This document shows, in pieces, positions 23,737-45,690 of a stretch of DNA of 64,000 nucleotides. A program made the position numbers and the translations under genes. Below the pieces are notes generated by a model. The model did not search any database. It worked only from the letters and a program-made list of their open reading frames with translations, and was not told the DNA's origin. The stretch is from Haloarcula pelagica. GTDB lineage: Archaea; Halobacteriota; Halobacteria; Halobacteriales; Haloarculaceae. The stretch's first letter is position 1, and the number at the start of each line of letters is the position of its first letter. The DNA lies in the NCBI RefSeq assembly GCF_030127105.1, contig NZ_CP126161.1, positions 1,922,001 to 1,986,000 of the forward strand, in the 5' to 3' direction.

Positions 23737-24489
23737 TCACTCACCCGACAGCGCCGCGCTCGCCCGGTAGACCAGTTCCACCGGGAGCCCCTTCGCGTCC
23801 GTCGGTGGCTCGGGCGGGAGCGTCCGCAGTGCCCCGTCGCCCGGTGCGGCCGTGTACGCGAGCACCACCGCGTCGAGTACGTCGGCCACGGTGACCGCGT
23901 GGCCGGCCGTCTCGTCGGCGGCCCGCTGGACGGTCGGGGCGGCGTCCCGGTCGTAGTGGGCCAGCACCCGCATCCGCTCGGCGTAGCCCGCCGCCGTCCC
24001 GCGGGGCTGTTCGAGCGGATCACCGGCGAGCGCCCGGAAACACAGTTCGGGATCTGACGACCGGATCACTGCGGCGGCTTCCGGCACTTCCTGGAGGAGT
24101 TCGTCGAGCATCGCGATCCCGTCGCGGGCCTCGAAGGCGGCCTCCGACAGCGCCTCGCCGCTCTTGCGTTCGTGGACGCGACCCGCGGCCGAGTACCGCC
24201 GCTTGCGGGTCGCCTCCCGGACCGGCGGCGTGTAGACGGTCCCGGCCTGTGGCCCCAGCACTCGCCGGGCGAGGTCGTCACACCGTCTGGCGGGGTCGCC
24301 GGACTCGACCAGGCCGACCGGGAGATCGACCAGAATCCGCCGTGCCGTCTCCTCGTACCGCGCCCAGCAGTCGCCGATCCCGTCACACACGGCGACGTGG
24401 TCGAACCCCTCGGTCCCGAACGCCACCGCCAGCCACGACTCGTCACACCAGGTGATCCCGACGTAGTAGTCGGCCGCGTCGTCGGCCAT
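23737..24489 (-). CDS. DUF429 family protein
   Basis: A 250-residue soluble protein with the DUF429 RNase H-like pattern: YYVGITWCDESWLAVAFG at the start, ILVDLPVGL (about residue 52), and the paired-Arg segments RRCDDLARRVLG and RKRRYSAAGRVHERKSG, then GYAERMRVLAHY late. The family is predicted to be nuclease-related but lacks a proven activity. It is the last core gene before the tRNA-derived repeats and the integrated element. Confidence 0.85.
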   Translation of the reverse strand: MADDAADYYVGITWCDESWLAVAFGTEGFDHVAVCDGIGDCWARYEETARRILVDLPVGLVESGDPARRCDDLARRVLGPQAGTVYTPPVREATRKRRYSAAGRVHERKSGEALSEAAFEARDGIAMLDELLQEVPEAAAVIRSSDPELCFRALAGDPLEQPRGTAAGYAERMRVLAHYDRDAAPTVQRAADETAGHAVTVADVLDAVVLAYTAAPGDGALRTLPPEPPTDAKGLPVELVYRASAALSGE

Positions 24490-24642
24490 TGTCGACTATC
24501 GTCGGTGCGTGGAGAAAAAGCTGACCCGACTCTGTCGGGGAGTGACGGGCCGCTCACATGTCGTTTCGGAGGATTCCGCCTTCCTTCCGGACCGTAGCGA
24601 CTGCCCGGTGACGGAACCCCCTGGCAGAACTGTGGGCGGAAG

Positions 24643-24907
24643 AAGCCTGGGCCGGAATTTGAACCAGAGGAAGACTCGCTACGCTCGTCTTCCAGGCATT
24701 CAAATCCCGGTCCGTCTCGTACGACGATACGGGATGCGGCGCGACGAGACGCGCCGCTCGCAGGTGATCTCCAAGAAGAGCCTAAGCCGGAATTTGAACC
24801 AGAGCCAGACGGTCCTGCTCACTCCCTGCGGTCGTTGCGCGGGCTGCGACTGGCAGGGATTCAAATTCCGACTTTAGCTTTCGCTCCTCACGTTCGTTCG
24901 TCGCAGA
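24643..24907. repeat. Two palindromes made of tRNA-Thr 3'-end-like sequence, left of the element
   Basis: The acceptor/T-arm sequence of tRNA-Thr as seen on the plus strand (GCCTAGGCCGGAATTTGAA) recurs in degenerate form at 24645-24663 and 24780-24798. Each is followed by an inverted partner: 24699-24710 pairs with 24652-24663 (11 of 12), and 24860-24870 pairs exactly with 24788-24798. The first palindrome also has an inner 7-bp stem (24669-24675 with 24687-24693). No gene is apparent in 24490-24907. Confidence 0.75.
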
Positions 24908-24952
24908 AAGCCTAGGCCGGAATTTGAATCCGGGGTCTCGTCCTTACCAAGG
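24908..24952. repeat. Left attachment site (45-bp copy of tRNA-Thr 3' half)
   Basis: 45 bases identical to 45618-45662, running from just beyond the tRNA 3' end through the T arm and variable region to the anticodon stem-loop. The rest of the tRNA is absent here, as expected for the far end of an element integrated into the tRNA 3' half. Confidence 0.92.
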
Positions 24953-25214
24953 TCCTGGTCGACACCGGACCAAATCGGACGTTTCACAGCTACTATTGCT
25001 GGTTCTCGACCGTTTCCGGTCCTTCTCATCCCGAAATCACTACACGAGCCTATAAATAAGCGATGATACATTCTCGGGAGCCACAGGCGCACGTTCCGGA
25101 AAACAACCCACAGAACCAGCCGTGGCCGTTGAAATTGATGGCACCGGACCGTTCTCTTGATCATTTCTCAGGGCCGTGCGGAAAGCCGAACTACGTCAAC
25201 AGTTATGGCCTTCA
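24953..25214. other. Left-end non-coding segment of the element
   Basis: About 260 bases between the att site and the first gene. It contains an A/T-rich CCTATAAATAAGCG element near 25051, which could be a promoter, but no convincing reading frame follows. Open frames here are short and unlike neighbouring proteins. Confidence 0.5.
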
Positions 25215-25748
25215 CTATTCACTGACGATAGATGCACTGTCTGGAATCGGATTCAGCGACGAAACCGGCACTTCGTAGTTGTAATGGTCAAAATTCGACT
25301 TCTTCCGGTCCGCATCAAGTACCATCTCTTCCGTTGCCGTTCCTATGAGATTCACCGTGACATCTTCTAACGTATCTTCCAACGCCCCCTCCAAATGAGC
25401 GAGAACGTAATACTCTGAGTCAACACGCCACTCCTTAACCGGTAAGGCGTACGGCTCTTTCCGACTGGTTTTCACATCAACCGTCCGCTTGATGCCATCG
25501 ATAGAAACCTCGAAATCAACACCACCATCTGACCATCGTACAAGTTCCGTATCAATCTGCAAATCAGCATAGATAGCGAACGCCATCTCACCCAAGAGTC
25601 CGATTACGTGTCGGTCTTCAGGGTCAACACCCCACGTTCTGGCATAGTTGTCCCAGTCTTCCCGCTTCTCAAACGATTGATTTCGCTCACTGGCCTTTCG
25701 ATACACCGTTCTGACCAGTCGTGGCGGTATCTCCACAGCGGTAGTCAT
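25215..25748 (-). CDS. PD-(D/E)XK nuclease-like protein
   Basis: 177 residues. The centre carries a plausible restriction-endonuclease-fold active site: GLLGEMAFAIYADL (Glu in the first helix), GGVDFEVSI (Asp about residue 75) and VDVKTSRKEPYAL (the D-V-K form of (D/E)xK). Nothing else is recognisable. It is the first gene inside the left end, its stop is about 260 bases from the att site, and a strong palindrome lies 50 bases upstream of its start. It could be a stand-alone nuclease or part of the element's defence set. Confidence 0.65.
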   Translation of the reverse strand: MTTAVEIPPRLVRTVYRKASERNQSFEKREDWDNYARTWGVDPEDRHVIGLLGEMAFAIYADLQIDTELVRWSDGGVDFEVSIDGIKRTVDVKTSRKEPYALPVKEWRVDSEYYVLAHLEGALEDTLEDVTVNLIGTATEEMVLDADRKKSNFDHYNYEVPVSSLNPIPDSASIVSE

Positions 25749-25798
25749 TCAGGAGGATTACCCTACCACCCCGTAAATATCTACTGTGCCCCGATTTC

Positions 25799-25830
25799 TG
25801 TACGTACATATGGGCTTGTATGTACATACA
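25799..25830. promoter_or_regulatory. 12-bp inverted repeat upstream of the PD-(D/E)XK gene
   Basis: TGTACGTACATA at 25799-25810 and TATGTACATACA at 25819-25830 form an inverted repeat with one mismatch and an 8-base spacer. It is 51 bases ahead of the minus-strand start at 25748, a position suited to an operator or activator site. It resembles the 42930-42951 palindrome. Confidence 0.5.
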
Positions 25831-25944
25831 GACGGGGAGTTGAGAAGAGTCTCAACGAAACCCGGCCAACGGTTTTGGTGGCATGTTCTCACTCAGTTTC
25901 AATTCTATATCGAACTGTACAGCCCGTGATGGCCCGAGATTCAG

Positions 25945-26658
25945 TTATTCCTTCACGACCTCTGGAAGGCGATCCGCAGCAAAGTGATTCGTGAACTCCC
26001 TGAGCGACTCTCTGATGCTATGCGGAGTCCGGTCGGATTCGCCCTCTATCACATCAAGTTGCTTAGCTATCGTCTTTATTTCTGCAGATAAGTCAACATG
26101 GCATACCTCTCCCTGTGTATCCTCTTGGAGCTTTGATTGCCACAGTGTCCATCGCAGTCCATCAGTCCCAATGGCGACAAGATACTCGTGATTGATGTCT
26201 CGCAGGTATCTACAGAACGTGTTTACCTCTATGTAGTCGCGAATATCATCGGTTGCTGCGCGTTCCGATTGTTGTTCCCTGTTTGCCGCCTTCGCTTCGA
26301 GTATGCAAACTAAAGCGGAATCCACCTGTTCAAGCAGGTAGTCTGGACGTTTCGCTTCGACACTTCTGAATGTGGTCGGGCGGCGGACGAAGTATGCACC
26401 TGTCCCATCGTATTCTGGTGATGCAGGGTCGGTGTAACCAAGTCCATGTAAAATCGGCTCAATGAGATACTGCTCAGTGAACATCTCTGGCTGCTGTCCG
26501 ACAAGTGGTCCTTGCAGTGTCTGTGGTTTGTCAGCATCCAGAACCCGCCTTAGCTCGCCGCCTTCACCCAACTCCCGAAATTTGAGAGGGAACGTTTGAA
26601 GCTGTCTTCGGACGAGTTCAGCGCGTGGGTCAAACTCGTCAAGCTGGGGATCACTCAT
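25945..26658 (-). CDS. Restriction-type PD-(D/E)XK protein paired with the methylase
   Basis: 237 residues. The core GLGYTDPASPEY, RPDYLLEQVDSALVCILEAK (Asp and E-x-K of a PD-(D/E)XK site, about residues 100-125), NTFCRYLRD and YLVAIGTDGLRWTLW match the N-terminal nuclease domain found in type I HsdR and type IIG proteins. Its ATG at 26658 overlaps the stop of the large methylase by 8 bases, so the two are co-translated. It probably supplies or supplements the DNA-cleaving part of the restriction system. Confidence 0.72.
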   Translation of the reverse strand: MSDPQLDEFDPRAELVRRQLQTFPLKFRELGEGGELRRVLDADKPQTLQGPLVGQQPEMFTEQYLIEPILHGLGYTDPASPEYDGTGAYFVRRPTTFRSVEAKRPDYLLEQVDSALVCILEAKAANREQQSERAATDDIRDYIEVNTFCRYLRDINHEYLVAIGTDGLRWTLWQSKLQEDTQGEVCHVDLSAEIKTIAKQLDVIEGESDRTPHSIRESLREFTNHFAADRLPEVVKE

Positions 26659-29600
26659 TGACGACTGCTTCCTCGACAATCTCGATTTCTTCGTCGGTCA
26701 GGCCGTACAAATCGTAGACGATTTGATTGATCAGGTCGTCTGTGCGCTGAATCTTCCCGTCGAGTTCCTCCGCTCGCTCGATGGCCTCTCGATACCGTTT
26801 GAGGTCGTCGGCCACGTCGTCGGGGTCAGGGAGAGTTATCGCCTCCAGCCGGTCGACCAGCGAGTTCGTCTTCGTGGTTGTCTCGCGGAATCCGGCGAAA
26901 CCACCGGCTTCCTTGACGGCGACCGGCACGAACGCCTCCACGAGGTCGGCCTTGATTTCGGAGAGGTCGGTCAGACGCATCGCAGGCATCGGCTCTGTTT
27001 CTGTGTAGCCCCACTGGTCGGTCTCGTATGCATCTTCATCGTCAGGCTTGTAGCGAGCCGTAGCGTGGATGATGACTGTGCTCTGGTCCTCGCGTTCGCA
27101 CGTTACAGTCCCGATCCGAATGTTCCCGTACTCCTCCTTTGTGGCGGCCAGTTTCGTGTCGCCAACTCCCTCTGGAGGCTGGTAGATGCCGATGTCAGTG
27201 AGTGATGGTCCCTCCGAATATGGCTGTATATAGTCGAGGAGAGCAAGATTCAGGTCATCTCGCCGCTCGCTAAGATTTAGAGCTACACATGCTAAGTCGG
27301 AAAGGCGTTCTCCGGGACTCATCTCCTTGTCTTTGATTACGTTCTCGAATGTCGGCTCTGTCTCCCGCTCAGTTGCTGGTGATGAATCAGGGACAGGGAG
27401 TGGAGAAAGATACGAGGTCTTGAATCGGCGGAAATCACCGCGCAGAACGGAACTTGTATGGTAGACAAAAAACCACATCGGGGCACTATTTAGCACAGCG
27501 AGCAGATACTCTCGGTGTCGCTCTTCATTTCGCTCAGGCACGATACCGTAAGCTGTGTCGGGAAGGAAGGTGGTCCCGCTATGGTCTACGGTAAATTCAC
27601 ATCTTTGACAAACGTCTGGAGTGATAACTTTGGGTGCCTCAAACAACTGTTTCTCCCGCGACCGGTAGAGGGCATACCACTCCCGATAACGCATATCCCC
27701 AGTCCCCCGGTCAGCAAGTCGCTCTTTGAATTCGGTGAGATACTCGAATGTTAATGGATACTCGTTCTGGAGCTTGTTTTCCGGAATTGGGCGTGTTTCT
27801 CCCCGGTGTGTTTCGTGCGGATAGACGACCGCTTCTTGGGCCTGTGTGGAGCCAAACCGTTCAATAACGTCACCTCGAAGTAGGGGTCTGACAATCTCTG
27901 ATTCCAATTCGTACTGAGCACCATCTAAGGCACACTCAATCTTCACCGTCTCCTTATTCCTCTCGATTATCTCTACAAACAAGACTTTGTTATCTCCAGA
28001 AACGATGCCCTCCGACAGGTACTGTGATTGTTCTTTTATTGGTGTGCCACCCTCCCGAAGTTTATCGAGCACGTTGCGTTCCCGTGGTCCTGTTAGTGCC
28101 CACTTTTCATCATCAAGGTCGTCCAATTTAATTTCAGCTCTTGGTGCCTGGTTGAGTCCGACTTCGCTTGCTTCGCTGGCCTCGGCGTATTCGAACGCCT
28201 GGCCTCTGCTCTGGAGAGATAGGATACAGGTGTAAGTCGTCACACCTTCAAACACCTGATGTCGACCGAAGTCAACGATTTCGCGGAGTAGCTGGTTCGA
28301 GACGAGATACTGTCGTAGCGGTTGCCCGGCACCAGATTCGAAGAACTTGTTGGGGAGGATATACGATAGTCGACCATCAGCCGTAAGTTCTGTCCCGACC
28401 TTGACAAACAGCGCATAGATGTCGAACCGACCCGTTGCGATATCGAACGTCTGTAGAGCGTAATCCGCGAACTGTGGTACTGAACGCCTGAGATTCTGAA
28501 TCTTGACGTATGGCGGATTCCCAATTACCGCATCGAATCCGGCGTCTTCTCGCGTTGTCCCGCCCTCTCTGTAGAATACCTCTGGGAACGCCAGCTTCCA
28601 GTGGAAGAAATCTTGCTCACCGGCTGTCGCTTGGGCACTTCTGAACCAATCAGTATTTTTGACGGCCATCCACTCTTCGTCATCCTCCAGTGCCTTCGCC
28701 ATGCGTTCGTAGACACCACTTGGTACATCGAGGCCAAACCGCTCGGCTGTATGGACGTTCGCCATCGCCACGAGTCGTCGACGGAGTTCGTCTTGCTCGA
28801 TTTCGGCGTACTTACGTTTCATTTCGCGCACGTCCTCGACTGTCTCATTCTCTATGTCGAGGAACTCGCTATAGATGTCCATCAGGCGCTCGATAGTGCC
28901 TTCACGGGTCGCGCCGAACTCAGCCAATGACGCCTGCTCGCCGTCTCCATTGGCGTCGGATTCCAGTTCCTCGATGTCCTCAATGTCTGAACCGACCAGT
29001 GAGTTGCCCTGCTTGAAGTGGTGGTCGAGGAAGGCGAGCGGACGGTCGGCGGCCAGGGTCTCCAACCACATCGACAGCTTCGCCAGCTCGACGGCCATCC
29101 CGTTCAGGTCGACACCGTAGATACACTCCTTGGCGATTTCTCGCCGAATGTGCTGTTCGTCGAAGGCCACGCCGAACTCGGTCTCGGCCTCTCGGACCTC
29201 GGCCATCACCTGCTCGGACAGATAGCCTGTCGCTTTCGTCAGGAAGTGACCGCTACCCATTGCGGGGTCAAGAATCCGAAGGTCGGTCACACGACGGAAG
29301 AAAGGTCCGATGTACTCCTGTGTGCCCGGCTCGAAGCCCTGGTCGATGAGGTCTTCGCGTATCTCTTCGACCAGCGGGCCGACCGTCTCCTCGACGATGT
29401 ACGTCACGACATAGTCGGGCGTGTAGTACGCACCGGTGGCTTTGCGCTCGCCTTCATCGTTGACGACGTATAGGCCGCCCTCGCGGACGGTCTCGACGGC
29501 GTCGGCTACGCTGACTTCGGTAGCAGGCTTCCAGACCTGGCCACCGTCCTCCGCGACCGCTGCATACTGCTCGGATGCAATACGGAACTGATGCTCAAGC

Positions 29601-30895
29601 AGGCCCTCGTAGACGCTCCCGAGGTGGCGTGTGTCGAGGTCGGCGTAGTCCGCTAGCACGTAGCGACCCTCATCGTTTTGCGTGGTTGATAGCCGGTAGA
29701 TGACCTCTGCGAGGTACTGGTTGCTCACCTCATGCTCGGTAAGGAAATCGTGGGATTCATGATCGAACAAGCCACCGTTGTACGGCGGAATACCGAGGTC
29801 GTCCTCGCCTTCGTCAATAAGCCGAAACAGGTCTTCGAGTCGGCCCCACATTCCCGTCGAGTAGTCACTGAACTCTTCGGCGAACCCCTCGTCGACTTCC
29901 CCGATTTTATCGTGGATTTCGAGCCGGAGAGCATCAAGGCTGAAGTTCTCCTCGTAGTCGTCCTGCGCTCGCTGGTCCTCGGGATGGATGAGCCCACGCG
30001 CCTCTGCGTAGAGTACAAACATCAGCCGGTAGAGGAACACGAGCGACTGCTCTTTCAGTTCGTCCAGAGATTCTTCATCGTCGGGGTCAATGTCAAGGTC
30101 GTCGTTGGTCTCGACGAATCCTCGTCCGAGTACCCGCAGGGCGGTGAAGACGTTGTCCTGTAGATTCTCTCCGAGTTCCTGTGACGCCGTCTCGCTTTCG
30201 GACCACACCTCGTCCAGAAACGTCGTCCCACCGGACTCGTGAAACGTGGCGGGCCGGAAGAACAAGTAGAAGTATTTGAACGCCTCCATGTCGCCGCGTT
30301 CAAGCAGCTCGGGGAGGTCTACTTCGTAGTAGGTCTGGGTCTCGTAATCGTTGGTACCGTAGAGTCGCCACTTGCGACCGTTGGTGAGTACGCCCCACTG
30401 AATGTGCGACGGTGTATTTTCGAGATAATGCTTGGTCTGATGAGAGGCGTTCCGGTATGGGCGCTGTTCGCTAAACTGCACGTTGAAATCGGCGTCCCAC
30501 TGTTTGGCTTCGACAATGCCCACACCACGTTCAAACAGGTCAGTTGTATCCTGGGTATCTAAGTAGACCTTCGCGGCCTCACGGCGAGCTGTAGGCGTCT
30601 CAAACAGGAGCTCGTCAACGAATCCACCCCCATTGGGGAGTGTAACTTCGTCCTGCGTCCCAAACCCGAGCACATCGAGAACTTCATCTATCCAGTTATC
30701 GATGAGCGCGTCCTCGCCATACCCTTCGACCAGTGGGCCTTCTAACTCGTATAACGACTGGAGCTCTTCCATCGCTTGACGAGCTGCTTCATCGCAGTCC
30801 CACTCGTCTCGCTCCTGCACCCGACCATCCAGATAGTGGCTGGAGAACAGATTCGAGTTTACATATGGTCGTTCAGAGAGAGTGGCTTGGCTCAT
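26651..30895 (-). CDS. Eco57I/PglX-like restriction-modification methylase (type IIG-like)
   Basis: 1414 residues. Order: a PD-(D/E)XK-like region near the N-terminus (GVGIVEAKQWDADFNVQ, about 125-140), a helical middle, TGAYYTPDYVVTYIVEE (about 487), S-adenosylmethionine motif I LRILDPAMGSGHFLTKATG (about 541-560), and the amino-methyltransferase motif IV IGNPPYVK (about 791-798), then a large target-recognition and C-terminal region. This makes it an N6-adenine methyltransferase of the Eco57I type, with or without its own nuclease. Start chosen at ATG 30895 (MSQATLSERPYV); ATG at 30943 is the alternative. A small nuclease gene overlaps its 3' end. Confidence 0.85.
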   Translation of the reverse strand: MSQATLSERPYVNSNLFSSHYLDGRVQERDEWDCDEAARQAMEELQSLYELEGPLVEGYGEDALIDNWIDEVLDVLGFGTQDEVTLPNGGGFVDELLFETPTARREAAKVYLDTQDTTDLFERGVGIVEAKQWDADFNVQFSEQRPYRNASHQTKHYLENTPSHIQWGVLTNGRKWRLYGTNDYETQTYYEVDLPELLERGDMEAFKYFYLFFRPATFHESGGTTFLDEVWSESETASQELGENLQDNVFTALRVLGRGFVETNDDLDIDPDDEESLDELKEQSLVFLYRLMFVLYAEARGLIHPEDQRAQDDYEENFSLDALRLEIHDKIGEVDEGFAEEFSDYSTGMWGRLEDLFRLIDEGEDDLGIPPYNGGLFDHESHDFLTEHEVSNQYLAEVIYRLSTTQNDEGRYVLADYADLDTRHLGSVYEGLLEHQFRIASEQYAAVAEDGGQVWKPATEVSVADAVETVREGGLYVVNDEGERKATGAYYTPDYVVTYIVEETVGPLVEEIREDLIDQGFEPGTQEYIGPFFRRVTDLRILDPAMGSGHFLTKATGYLSEQVMAEVREAETEFGVAFDEQHIRREIAKECIYGVDLNGMAVELAKLSMWLETLAADRPLAFLDHHFKQGNSLVGSDIEDIEELESDANGDGEQASLAEFGATREGTIERLMDIYSEFLDIENETVEDVREMKRKYAEIEQDELRRRLVAMANVHTAERFGLDVPSGVYERMAKALEDDEEWMAVKNTDWFRSAQATAGEQDFFHWKLAFPEVFYREGGTTREDAGFDAVIGNPPYVKIQNLRRSVPQFADYALQTFDIATGRFDIYALFVKVGTELTADGRLSYILPNKFFESGAGQPLRQYLVSNQLLREIVDFGRHQVFEGVTTYTCILSLQSRGQAFEYAEASEASEVGLNQAPRAEIKLDDLDDEKWALTGPRERNVLDKLREGGTPIKEQSQYLSEGIVSGDNKVLFVEIIERNKETVKIECALDGAQYELESEIVRPLLRGDVIERFGSTQAQEAVVYPHETHRGETRPIPENKLQNEYPLTFEYLTEFKERLADRGTGDMRYREWYALYRSREKQLFEAPKVITPDVCQRCEFTVDHSGTTFLPDTAYGIVPERNEERHREYLLAVLNSAPMWFFVYHTSSVLRGDFRRFKTSYLSPLPVPDSSPATERETEPTFENVIKDKEMSPGERLSDLACVALNLSERRDDLNLALLDYIQPYSEGPSLTDIGIYQPPEGVGDTKLAATKEEYGNIRIGTVTCEREDQSTVIIHATARYKPDDEDAYETDQWGYTETEPMPAMRLTDLSEIKADLVEAFVPVAVKEAGGFAGFRETTTKTNSLVDRLEAITLPDPDDVADDLKRYREAIERAEELDGKIQRTDDLINQIVYDLYGLTDEEIEIVEEAVVNE

Positions 30896-31144
30896 TCGAG
30901 ATATACCAGATTGCTTCCGCCAACTCACAAATAGATGACGCAAGAGGTGGTGATTTCGAACCGTCTCCTATTCTCTGTGTGATTTCCTGCACTGTCACTT
31001 GTTCTCTCAGTAGTTTCAAGTACTCTGACCTGTTTATTAATGGTACAAGATAGGCTATATTGTGCGGGCCACCTGAAATTGGCCCCTCAGCAGGGTGCTG
31101 TATAACGGCACAGTCGCGGCTTCGGCTGTGTCGTTAACCCACCC

Positions 31145-44264: not shown

Positions 44265-45464
44265 TTACCAGATTTGTTCGGCCGCGTCGTTTCGAGTTTC
44301 GGCGTCGGAGTGGAGATATTTCATCGTCGTCGTGACGCTCTTGTGACGAAGCTGCTCTTTCGCGTGGTGCGGACCGATATGATTCGCCCAGTATGTCGCA
44401 ACCCCGTGGCGAATCGCGTACCATGTTATGTCCTTGTGGTCTGGAATGGGAAGGTCACCATCGTCGACGAGCCGGCTCAGTAGGTAGTTACATGACTTCG
44501 AACTGTACGTAGTCCCTTGCTTCGTGAGCCAGAGTTCGTCTCGACCACGATACTTGTCATACGTTGCTCGCTCCTCCAACCACCGTTCGAGGACTCTCGC
44601 TGTGCGCCCCTTGATTGAACAGTTCCAGTGAGCTTCGTTCTTTGTGGACTCGTCTTTGGGAATGTTGAGCTCGTTGTTCTCAAGATTGATCCACTCCGTA
44701 GTAGCTCGGCCCACCTCGATGGGACGAAGCCCAGTGTCCAACGTCACAGCGATAATCGACGGTTCTTTCCAAGAGTTAGCCTGTTTGAAGTGCTCGGGGC
44801 CGACCTCAGACTTGGGCACGCCGAGTCGCTGGGAGACGAATGTCTTCAGCCGATCACGCTCCTCGGAGGACATGTCGCTATGGTAGCTCTTGACTGAATT
44901 GTATTCCAGCGCCGCCTGATAGAGCGGCTTGAAAGCCGTCCGGCGAAGATAATCGCGCTCGTCGCCAGTTGCTTGACTCAGTTCCGGCTTCGGTTCCCAG
45001 TCGTAATCGGTTCCGTGGATATGGTTTTGATACTTGAATAGCCGCTGGACAGCCTTCCCGTAGTGAAGTACGCTTGAATCAGCCATCTCGTCTGAGCGGT
45101 TGAGGAGTCGAATGAGTCGATCTGCATGATCTGGTGTAAACGCCGTCGTGTAGGCGTCTTCATATTCCCAGAGCCACCGAAACGCAATTTCAAGCTTGTA
45201 GTGTGTCGACTGAAGTGTACTCTGGGCGAGGCCCTGACCTTTCTCTGGGTGTTTCCCATACGAGCCGAGCCACGAGAGGAGCTCTTTCTTGAAGTCCCGG
45301 TAGTCGTCGACCATATTGAGTCCGTACGCTTCGAGGTCTTCGCGTGACCGTTCACTGACGAGCGGGAAATCGAGTTCCACTGGTTCTGGAGCCGATGGAA
45401 GCCCATCCTGAGGGGTGCCACCACCAGCGGGGAGGTTATCCAGTGGATCGGGTTGGTTGGTCAC
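44265..45464 (-). CDS. Tyrosine recombinase/integrase of the element
   Basis: 399 residues. The SAM-like N-terminal domain (about 60-165) is followed by the catalytic domain with the first Arg in LDTGLRPIEVGRA, the second in DITWYAIRHGVATYWANH (position of the usual H-x-L-R-H, here Y-A-I-R-H), and EQLRHKSVTTTMKYLH holding the His and nucleophile Tyr. It catalyses integration and excision at the tRNA att sites. Start placed at GTG 45464, which has a GGAGGTG SD 9 bases upstream; ATG 45515 is an alternative. It abuts the intact tRNA-Thr. Confidence 0.9.
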   Translation of the reverse strand: MTNQPDPLDNLPAGGGTPQDGLPSAPEPVELDFPLVSERSREDLEAYGLNMVDDYRDFKKELLSWLGSYGKHPEKGQGLAQSTLQSTHYKLEIAFRWLWEYEDAYTTAFTPDHADRLIRLLNRSDEMADSSVLHYGKAVQRLFKYQNHIHGTDYDWEPKPELSQATGDERDYLRRTAFKPLYQAALEYNSVKSYHSDMSSEERDRLKTFVSQRLGVPKSEVGPEHFKQANSWKEPSIIAVTLDTGLRPIEVGRATTEWINLENNELNIPKDESTKNEAHWNCSIKGRTARVLERWLEERATYDKYRGRDELWLTKQGTTYSSKSCNYLLSRLVDDGDLPIPDHKDITWYAIRHGVATYWANHIGPHHAKEQLRHKSVTTTMKYLHSDAETRNDAAEQIW

Positions 45465-45617
45465 GCGCACACACCTCCGTTTGTTTGTGTGCCATGACAC
45501 ATTCTCGAATCGCAAGACTGCGCGGCTATCGGGTTGTAGCGTTTTCGGGTGTTATTGGACATCGTTTGGCTCTCATGAGAAGGCCGAAATCGACTGAGAG
45601 AGCCTGTAAGGCCGCTT

Positions 45618-45662
45618 AAGCCTAGGCCGGAATTTGAATCCGGGGTCTCGTCCTTACCAAGG
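45618..45662. repeat. Right attachment site (within intact tRNA-Thr)
   Basis: 45 bases identical to 24908-24952. It covers the 3' half of the tRNA-Thr gene from the anticodon stem-loop to one base past the tRNA end. Confidence 0.92.
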
Positions 45663-45690
45663 ACGCGCTTTACCGCTAAGCTACCCAGGC
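45619..45690 (-). tRNA. tRNA-Thr (anticodon GGT)
   Basis: 72 bases. Acceptor strands GCCTGGG and CCTAGGC pair over 7 bp with one G-T; discriminator T. D arm GCTTAGCGGTAAAGC; anticodon stem CGTCC/GGACG with loop TTGGTAA, giving anticodon GGT (Thr); T arm CCGGATTCAAATTCCGG. No intron and no encoded CCA. Confidence 0.95.

Follow-up and report, generated by a model that had tools for sequence, protein, structure and literature searches.

In the genome of the haloarchaeon Haloarcula pelagica, palindromes built from the 3' end of a tRNA-Thr gene border the far end of an integrated element, which raises the question of what these sequences are and how they came to lie there. The window, meaning the whole stretch of 64,000 nucleotides that was analysed, is located at G000:C1:1922001-1986000 in a genome of 4.46 Mb. 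An earlier note on this window had described two degenerate copies of the tRNA-Thr 3' end, each followed by an inverted partner, beside the left att site. Plain serial integration was considered a poor explanation for the inverted arms, and repair of hairpins or a functional structure (recombination directionality, a transcription stop or a small RNA) was suggested instead. The palindromes are two tandem units of an array that is located 3' of tRNAs in haloarchaea, and what appeared to be a local oddity is a haloarchaea-wide feature.

The tRNA-Thr locus and its displaced array

The left att site is borne out by an exact repeat, as the distal and tRNA-side att copies are identical over 45 bp (Table 1). 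Because this repeat occurs together with a tyrosine recombinase that adjoins tRNA-Thr, the segment 24908-45618 is identified as an integrated island. The recombinase is the only one seen in the window and scores far under the XerA and XerC cut-offs. The DNA to the left of the distal att copy was once located directly 3' of tRNA-Thr(GGT), and the array now lies 20.7 kb from this tRNA with the integrase-bearing island in between. Near the other end of the island, a protein of 1430 amino acids (26651-30943, minus strand) has similarity to BREX PglX-type adenine methyltransferases, under the curated cut-offs.

Table 1. Features of the tRNA-Thr locus in window coordinates (D, direct copy; I, inverted copy; h1 and h2, hairpins)
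Feature	Position	Strand	Remarks
tRNA-Thr(GGT)	45619..45690	-	ARAGORN; RF00005; own 3' end copied in the array
tRNA-side att copy	45618..45662	-	tRNA position 29 to 3' end plus 1 base; exact 45-bp match
Island tyrosine recombinase	44265..45515	-	PF00589, E 2.7e-13; adjoins tRNA-Thr
Distal att copy (D0)	24908..24952	-	original 3' end, to which the array was attached before island arrival
h1a module (TTCTGCGACGAACGAACGTGAGGAGCGAAAGC...)	24880..24908	-	directly 3' of the tRNA 3' end
I1, inverted T-arm copy	24857..24879	-	core GGAATTTGAATCC at 24857-24869; partial acceptor complement beyond the core
h2b hairpin	24801..24856	-	between I1 and D1; fold
D1, direct copy of tRNA-Thr 53-73	24779..24800	-	direct-copy stretch 24779-24810
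h1d module (CTTCTTGGAGATCACCTGCGAGCGGCGCGTCTCGTCGCGCCGC...)	24711..24778	-	directly 3' of tRNA-Thr in relatives G035, G029 and G008
I2, inverted T-arm copy (CCGGGATTTGAAT)	24698..24710	-	short, 13 nt of T-arm
h2a hairpin (GGAAGACGAGCGTAGCGAGTCTTCC)	24666..24697	-	tandem GA/GA on the tRNA strand
D2, direct copy of tRNA-Thr 53-73	24644..24665	-	direct-copy stretch 24644-24675
Start of degenerate third unit	24599..24643	-	h1c-like; clusters with h1c segments of seven relatives' loci

On the tRNA strand, each unit consists of a hairpin (h1), an inverted copy of the T-arm (I), a second hairpin (h2) and a direct copy of tRNA positions 53-73 (D). The array of the window reads D0 - h1a - I1 - h2b - D1 - h1d - I2 - h2a - D2 - degenerate h1c, with the unit boundaries inside h1 being approximate. 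Both degenerate copies and their inverted partners were recovered (D2 with I2 and D1 with I1). The proposed origin of the palindromes from the tRNA 3' end holds for the direct copies, whereas the inverted copies cover mainly the T-arm and not the whole 3' end. The two direct-copy stretches are 88% alike, a third copy is present at the att site (24909), and the direct copies are spaced 135 and 130 bp apart.

Ranked across all 64 kb of the window, the top four direct matches to the tRNA 3' end are D1, D2, the att copy and tRNA-Thr itself, and I1 and I2 are the only inverted matches that score at least 11. When the 400 bp beside the att site were shuffled, an inverted match that good appeared at a frequency of 0.0025, while the real sequence has two. 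The secondary-structure prediction that had been proposed as a check shows that the 296-nt region folds at z = -4.6 compared to dinucleotide shuffles. The h1a module is also present behind tRNA-Lys and tRNA-Val genes of the same genome and behind tRNA-Thr of three relatives, and the h2a hairpin sequence is identical behind tRNA-Thr and tRNA-Asp of the source genome. A coding region was rejected, as the ORFs across the array are unsupported as genes and the region is palindromic throughout. No match to Rfam covariance models was obtained in 24000-26000 up to an E-value of 1.

Distribution behind the tRNA genes of haloarchaea

A search for the same layout behind other haloarchaeal tRNAs had been suggested, with a lack of recurrence as the outcome that would speak against the idea, and the layout recurs at many of them. 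The two-arm pattern (inverted T-arm, 10-40 nt, direct T-arm) was found in 94 of the 146 genomes of the family, with a reversed control giving 0 in every genome. Among 30 loci fetched from this search, 28 have a tRNA beside them, of many kinds; the remaining two are a displaced tRNA-Arg array (L028) and a single remnant (L035). Locus L028, from relative G021, is a second displaced array, with tRNA-Arg(TCG)-like tails and no tRNA within the 3-kb stretch. Of 393 genomes of the phylum, 56 contain the three-part D-I-D pattern. All of these belong to the order of the window (about 80 genomes sampled), the pattern was found in 0 of the roughly 310 phylum genomes outside this order, and reversed-pattern controls gave 0. 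Positives in a scan of named genomes include Haloarcula, Haloferax, Natrinema, Natrialba, Halorubrum, Halorientalis, Halococcus and others.

Scoring per tRNA, with other tRNA genes masked, detected D and I downstream of 13 of 43 tRNAs in the source genome, 12 of 32 in G476 and 6 of 29 in G210, a genome that had no strict-pattern match. The tRNA-Thr of the window counts as empty in this tally because the island is now directly behind it. Upstream of tRNAs, D together with I was found in none of these three haloarchaea, and a non-halophilic archaeon of the same phylum had D and I at 0 of 32 tRNAs. In the source genome, a D copy alone lies downstream of 15 of 43 tRNAs and upstream of none. In the three haloarchaea, units thus accompany between one fifth and above one third of the tested tRNA genes. 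Since more than half of the tRNAs have no unit and presence is patchy, the array is dispensable for tRNA function in general.

The first D is located 71-178 bp from the tRNA (5-95% range), the median repeat is about 110 bp, and the D-I-D alternation is regular. The units, of about 70-180 bp, contain no gene. For the h1a module, all five occurrences are behind tRNAs or a displaced tail. Arrays are confined to the 3' side of tRNAs, except where an island has moved one away from its tRNA. In G476 (G476:C1:1401023-1401379), three tRNA-family matches were observed on one strand at an exact spacing of 143 bp, with a tRNA-Gly(CCC) in the fetched locus.

A wide spread beyond the haloarchaea was rejected, as only single look-alikes were obtained there. 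Two of these, behind a tRNA-Ser of a Woesearchaeota MAG (L241) and a tRNA-Asn of a Nanoarchaeia MAG (L292), have the order D-h1-I-h2-D with copies of the own tail; in the Woesearchaeota class, the layout is present in 1 of 188 genomes. The third, from an Oscillospiraceae MAG (L261), combines a tRNA-Ser with a terminator-like hairpin, an inverted T-arm and a partial direct copy, and may be a bacterial counterpart.

Own-tRNA matching, one-strand structure and turnover of units

Haloarchaea carry modular arrays 3' of their tRNAs that match the own tRNA, are structured on the tRNA strand and gain and lose units precisely. This was analysed using 100 units fetched from many genera, 87 of which are on the same strand directly behind a tRNA and represent 29 isoacceptor kinds; the other 13 have no tRNA inside the short fetched stretch. 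The search pattern of the 87-unit set fixes the T-arm core of all three arms, and the independent evidence therefore comes from the bases outside it and from the free base 57. Over the 11 positions beyond the fixed 10-nt core, D is about 93% identical to its own tRNA and 49% identical to other tRNAs, and the match to the own tRNA is perfect in 63 of the 87 units. Identity of D stays at 0.86-0.98 at every position as far as the discriminator base and drops to background (0.49 and 0.46) directly beyond it, and the upstream edge is also sharp, with an identity of 0.30 one base before G53. The specificity of I for its own tRNA extends about three positions past the core (C61), and a run of at least five into the acceptor complement is present in 26% for the own tRNA and 14% for others. 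The variable base 57 is the same in tRNA, I and D in 77 of 87 units. When the D copies of the source genome were compared with all 43 tRNA tails, nearly all matched their own tail best.

With energies that handle tandem GA approximately, 77 of the 87 units have the more stable I-h2-D fold on the tRNA strand (mean -23.3 vs -18.2 kcal/mol, p 2.6e-13), and 74 of 87 have the more stable h1 fold there (p 3e-12), the p-values being descriptive as the genomes of the set are related. Flanking sequence, used as a control, showed no strand difference in folding (p 0.77). Hairpins with tandem GA/GA flanked by Watson-Crick stems were counted in h1 50 times in sense and 0 times in antisense orientation, and in h2 18 and 0 times, with letter-shuffle expectations of 0.25 and 0.05; a looser regular-expression count of GA-flanking pairs was set aside as too permissive. 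In addition, I-h2-D contains 90 GU pairs on the tRNA strand vs 51 on the complement (p 3.5e-4). This GU excess favours RNA over single-stranded DNA as the folding molecule, with the latter as a possible alternative, and under DNA parameters the tRNA strand again folds better (70 vs 17). In one h2 class of 14 units, hand-picked by class, 98.5% of pair cells pair and 20 compensatory double changes are observed vs 5.6 in shuffles (0/500), whereas slid structures fail in this covariation test. The suspicion of a functional structure raised in the earlier note is thus supported by recurrence, by strand-specific structure and by compensatory changes.

The turnover of units was followed across the tRNA-Thr loci of Haloarcula (30 loci), where a given h1 module adjoins tRNA-Thr in certain species but lies exactly one or two units away from it in others. 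Module h1d is behind the tRNA in the three relatives listed in Table 1, and behind D1 in G014, G026, G011, G023, G022 and the window. Module h1c adjoins the tRNA in four genomes, follows D1 in two and follows D2 in the window and G023, and h1e adjoins the tRNA in G018 and G014 and follows D2 in G026. Module order thus varies between species, and whole units are gained or lost within the genus exactly at the tRNA/D boundary. Preservation of D falls with distance from the tRNA, with scores of 22.5, 19.5 and 16.0 of 26 (p 0.013 for the first two D positions, 17 arrays). Types of h2 are common to different tRNA kinds, with up to nine in one cluster. In locus L186 (G228:C9:750269-750690), h2 is seemingly inverted between I and D, as though I and D had recombined, and in the tRNA-Thr units L101 and L102 (G035 and G029), h2 is absent and I and D are nearly fused (GGATTTGAATCTCTGGTTCAAATTCC).

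Possible roles and comparison with known systems

The best explanation, to which we give somewhat less than even odds (roughly 0.45), is that the array structure acts in a read-through transcript of the tRNA gene, with I locking the T-arm part of the second tail copy and the hairpins serving to delimit, terminate or protect the trailer. The folding strand would be that of the pre-tRNA read-through transcript, on the premise that the trailer is transcribed, and each unit would fold into a pair of stable hairpins that tandem sheared G-A pairs make more rigid. Pairing of I with the T-arm part of D would keep the second tail copy out of competition with the 3' half of the tRNA itself. The hairpins may form the 3' boundary of the tRNA transcript through termination and/or through protection and processing of the trailer. 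Hairpin-induced termination has been documented in Haloferax volcanii (PMC7237163). Recombination between the 21-nt D copies, either unequal or site-precise, could multiply units and remove them, and the common T-arm sequence might allow hairpin modules to move from one tRNA locus to another. In the window, the tyrosine-recombinase island would have integrated into tRNA-Thr later and carried the array away. The "transcription stop or small RNA" considered earlier is close to this explanation.

The main rival to a role in the trailer RNA holds that the units are recombining non-coding cassettes, with h1-I-h2-D as a minimal integrative unit and the T-loop/3' end of tRNAs as its insertion site. 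Once crossover had taken place near position 53, D would restore the tRNA. I-h2-D would serve as a folded tyrosine-recombinase site, analogous to an integron attC site or a T-loop attP without being either. This is possible but rather doubtful. The whole-unit gain and loss precise at one boundary, the variable module order, the better preservation of the D nearest the tRNA and the hairpin modules common to up to nine tRNA kinds all fit it, as does the single-strand folding bias that persists with DNA parameters. Folding alone does not account for the exact limits of D at 53-73, as I pairs with little of the acceptor part of D, and these limits look like those of a recombination segment; the sharp edges, at the T-loop border and the tRNA end, fit recombining cassettes better than a role in RNA. 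However, no recombinase or gene is linked to the units, homologous recombination between the 21-nt direct repeats already gives precise loss and duplication, and the GU excess favours RNA. Viral contigs also lack the D-I-D pattern, with haloviruses matching only the tRNA-Thr att piece and plasmids matching only in short pieces. A wider proposal, that haloarchaeal tRNA genes carry an integron-like system of gene-free cassettes, is considered improbable; in it, T-arm-derived folded strands would enter, leave and change places exactly at the tRNA 3' end, and the sense structure would be kept as recombination substrate.

Two further explanations are both unlikely. The arrays may be remnants of serial integration and deletion of larger elements, with the inverted arms resulting from accidental hairpin repair or template switching, for which the chances are low. 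The tRNA-Thr gene is an island hot spot, with element-like DNA directly 3' of it in several relatives, the h2 of L186 appears inverted, and "partial tRNAs" beside full tRNAs have been called remnants in Haloferax gibbonsii (PMC7921747). Against this, units behind many tRNAs and in many genera have one uniform anatomy and spacing, compensatory changes accompany the strand-specific structure, and the island att spans 45 nt from the anticodon arm, whereas D spans 53-73. One-off hairpin repair is also not supported since the layout is uniform and Halobacteria-wide. Very improbable is that the palindromes are accessories of the attachment site, as binding sites for the island integrase or a directionality factor, or as decoy att sites. 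They do flank the distal att site, and T-arm dyads can be recombinase core sites (reviewed in PMC8371274). However, arrays are present at island-free tRNAs, the tRNA-proximal end of the island has no such palindrome, and D lacks the anticodon arm that the longer island att contains. In the tRNA-Thr set, island-like DNA, wherever recognised, follows the tRNA itself and never a D copy. The recombination directionality proposed earlier receives no support, given the island-free arrays, the longer att and the viral contigs without the pattern.

Several narrower candidates were also rejected. A viral attP was dismissed because viral contigs gave no exact match to the D-I-D pattern or to one common h2 type. 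Mimicry of a tRNA minihelix, with I-h2-D as acceptor and T-arm processed by RNase P/Z, is weakened as I rarely reaches the acceptor complement. In a candidate kink-loop for L7Ae, inner A-U pairs change to G-C in step, and the U of the would-be kink-loop is therefore paired. Reverse transcription of mature tRNA was rejected as D carries no CCA.

If these findings hold, part of the haloarchaeal "tRNA remnants" would be a large family of structured trailer modules matched to their own tRNA and not debris. The question then posed is whether these are RNA elements that end or process tRNA transcripts or recombining cassettes, in genera that are tractable, such as Haloarcula and Haloferax. It would also bear on how tRNA genes coexist with integrating elements, and hundreds of natural variants are available for comparison.

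In the open-licence papers searched, without their supplementary files, no description of a tRNA-trailer array family was found, the closest analogues there being a palindrome of Methanopyrus kandleri and the partial tRNAs of H. gibbonsii. Nearest in idea are the rtT repeats (Rfam RtT) of the tyrT operon of Escherichia coli, which are reportedly arranged in tandem 3' of the tRNA in co-transcribed units of 178 bp that start with a copy of the tRNA 3' end. These repeats are confined to one operon in one bacterial group, and we know of no alternation of inverted T-arms and hairpins in them, which is where the haloarchaeal array differs. In M. kandleri, roughly every second tRNA gene has a palindrome, CGTTA-N9-TAACG, about 10 bp downstream; it was proposed to be a tRNA 3'-maturation signal and is said to be specific to M. 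kandleri (PMC5217627). This motif likewise lies 3' of archaeal tRNAs, but it is short, fixed and not derived from tRNA. The partial tRNAs of H. gibbonsii LR2-5 are direct tail copies downstream of tRNAs, several of them directly adjacent, as in the array, and the sections of that report consulted describe no inverted copies or hairpins (PMC7921747). The att copies of integrated elements differ from D in being kilobases away and variable in length. Remnants of serial att sites would share the direct tRNA 3'-end copies with the arrays, but would consist of direct copies only, with variable spacing and no one-strand structure, whereas the arrays show a regular D-I-D alternation structured on one strand. 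The PATEs, SMRs and MITEs of Haloquadratum are short non-coding palindromic repeats that act as dispersed mobile elements (PMC3119063). Unlike these, and unlike MITE or REP sequences with tRNA-independent positions, the array units are located behind tRNAs or displaced tails and match the local tRNA, as seen at 28 of 30 loci and in five of five h1a occurrences.

Integron attC sites, including those of archaeal integrons, are similar to the array in that their hairpins are imperfect and vary in the terminal part, fold in a strand-specific manner and form modular arrays that gain and lose units precisely (PMC9668308). The array units differ in being gene-free and tied to tRNA 3' ends, with neither a linked integron integrase (IntI) nor cassette genes. 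The attC R-box at the crossover has the consensus GTTRRRY. D starts with GTTCRAA and does not conform to this consensus. Each known kind tested fails a defining feature, and on this ground, not on that of function, the arrays appear to be a new kind of element.
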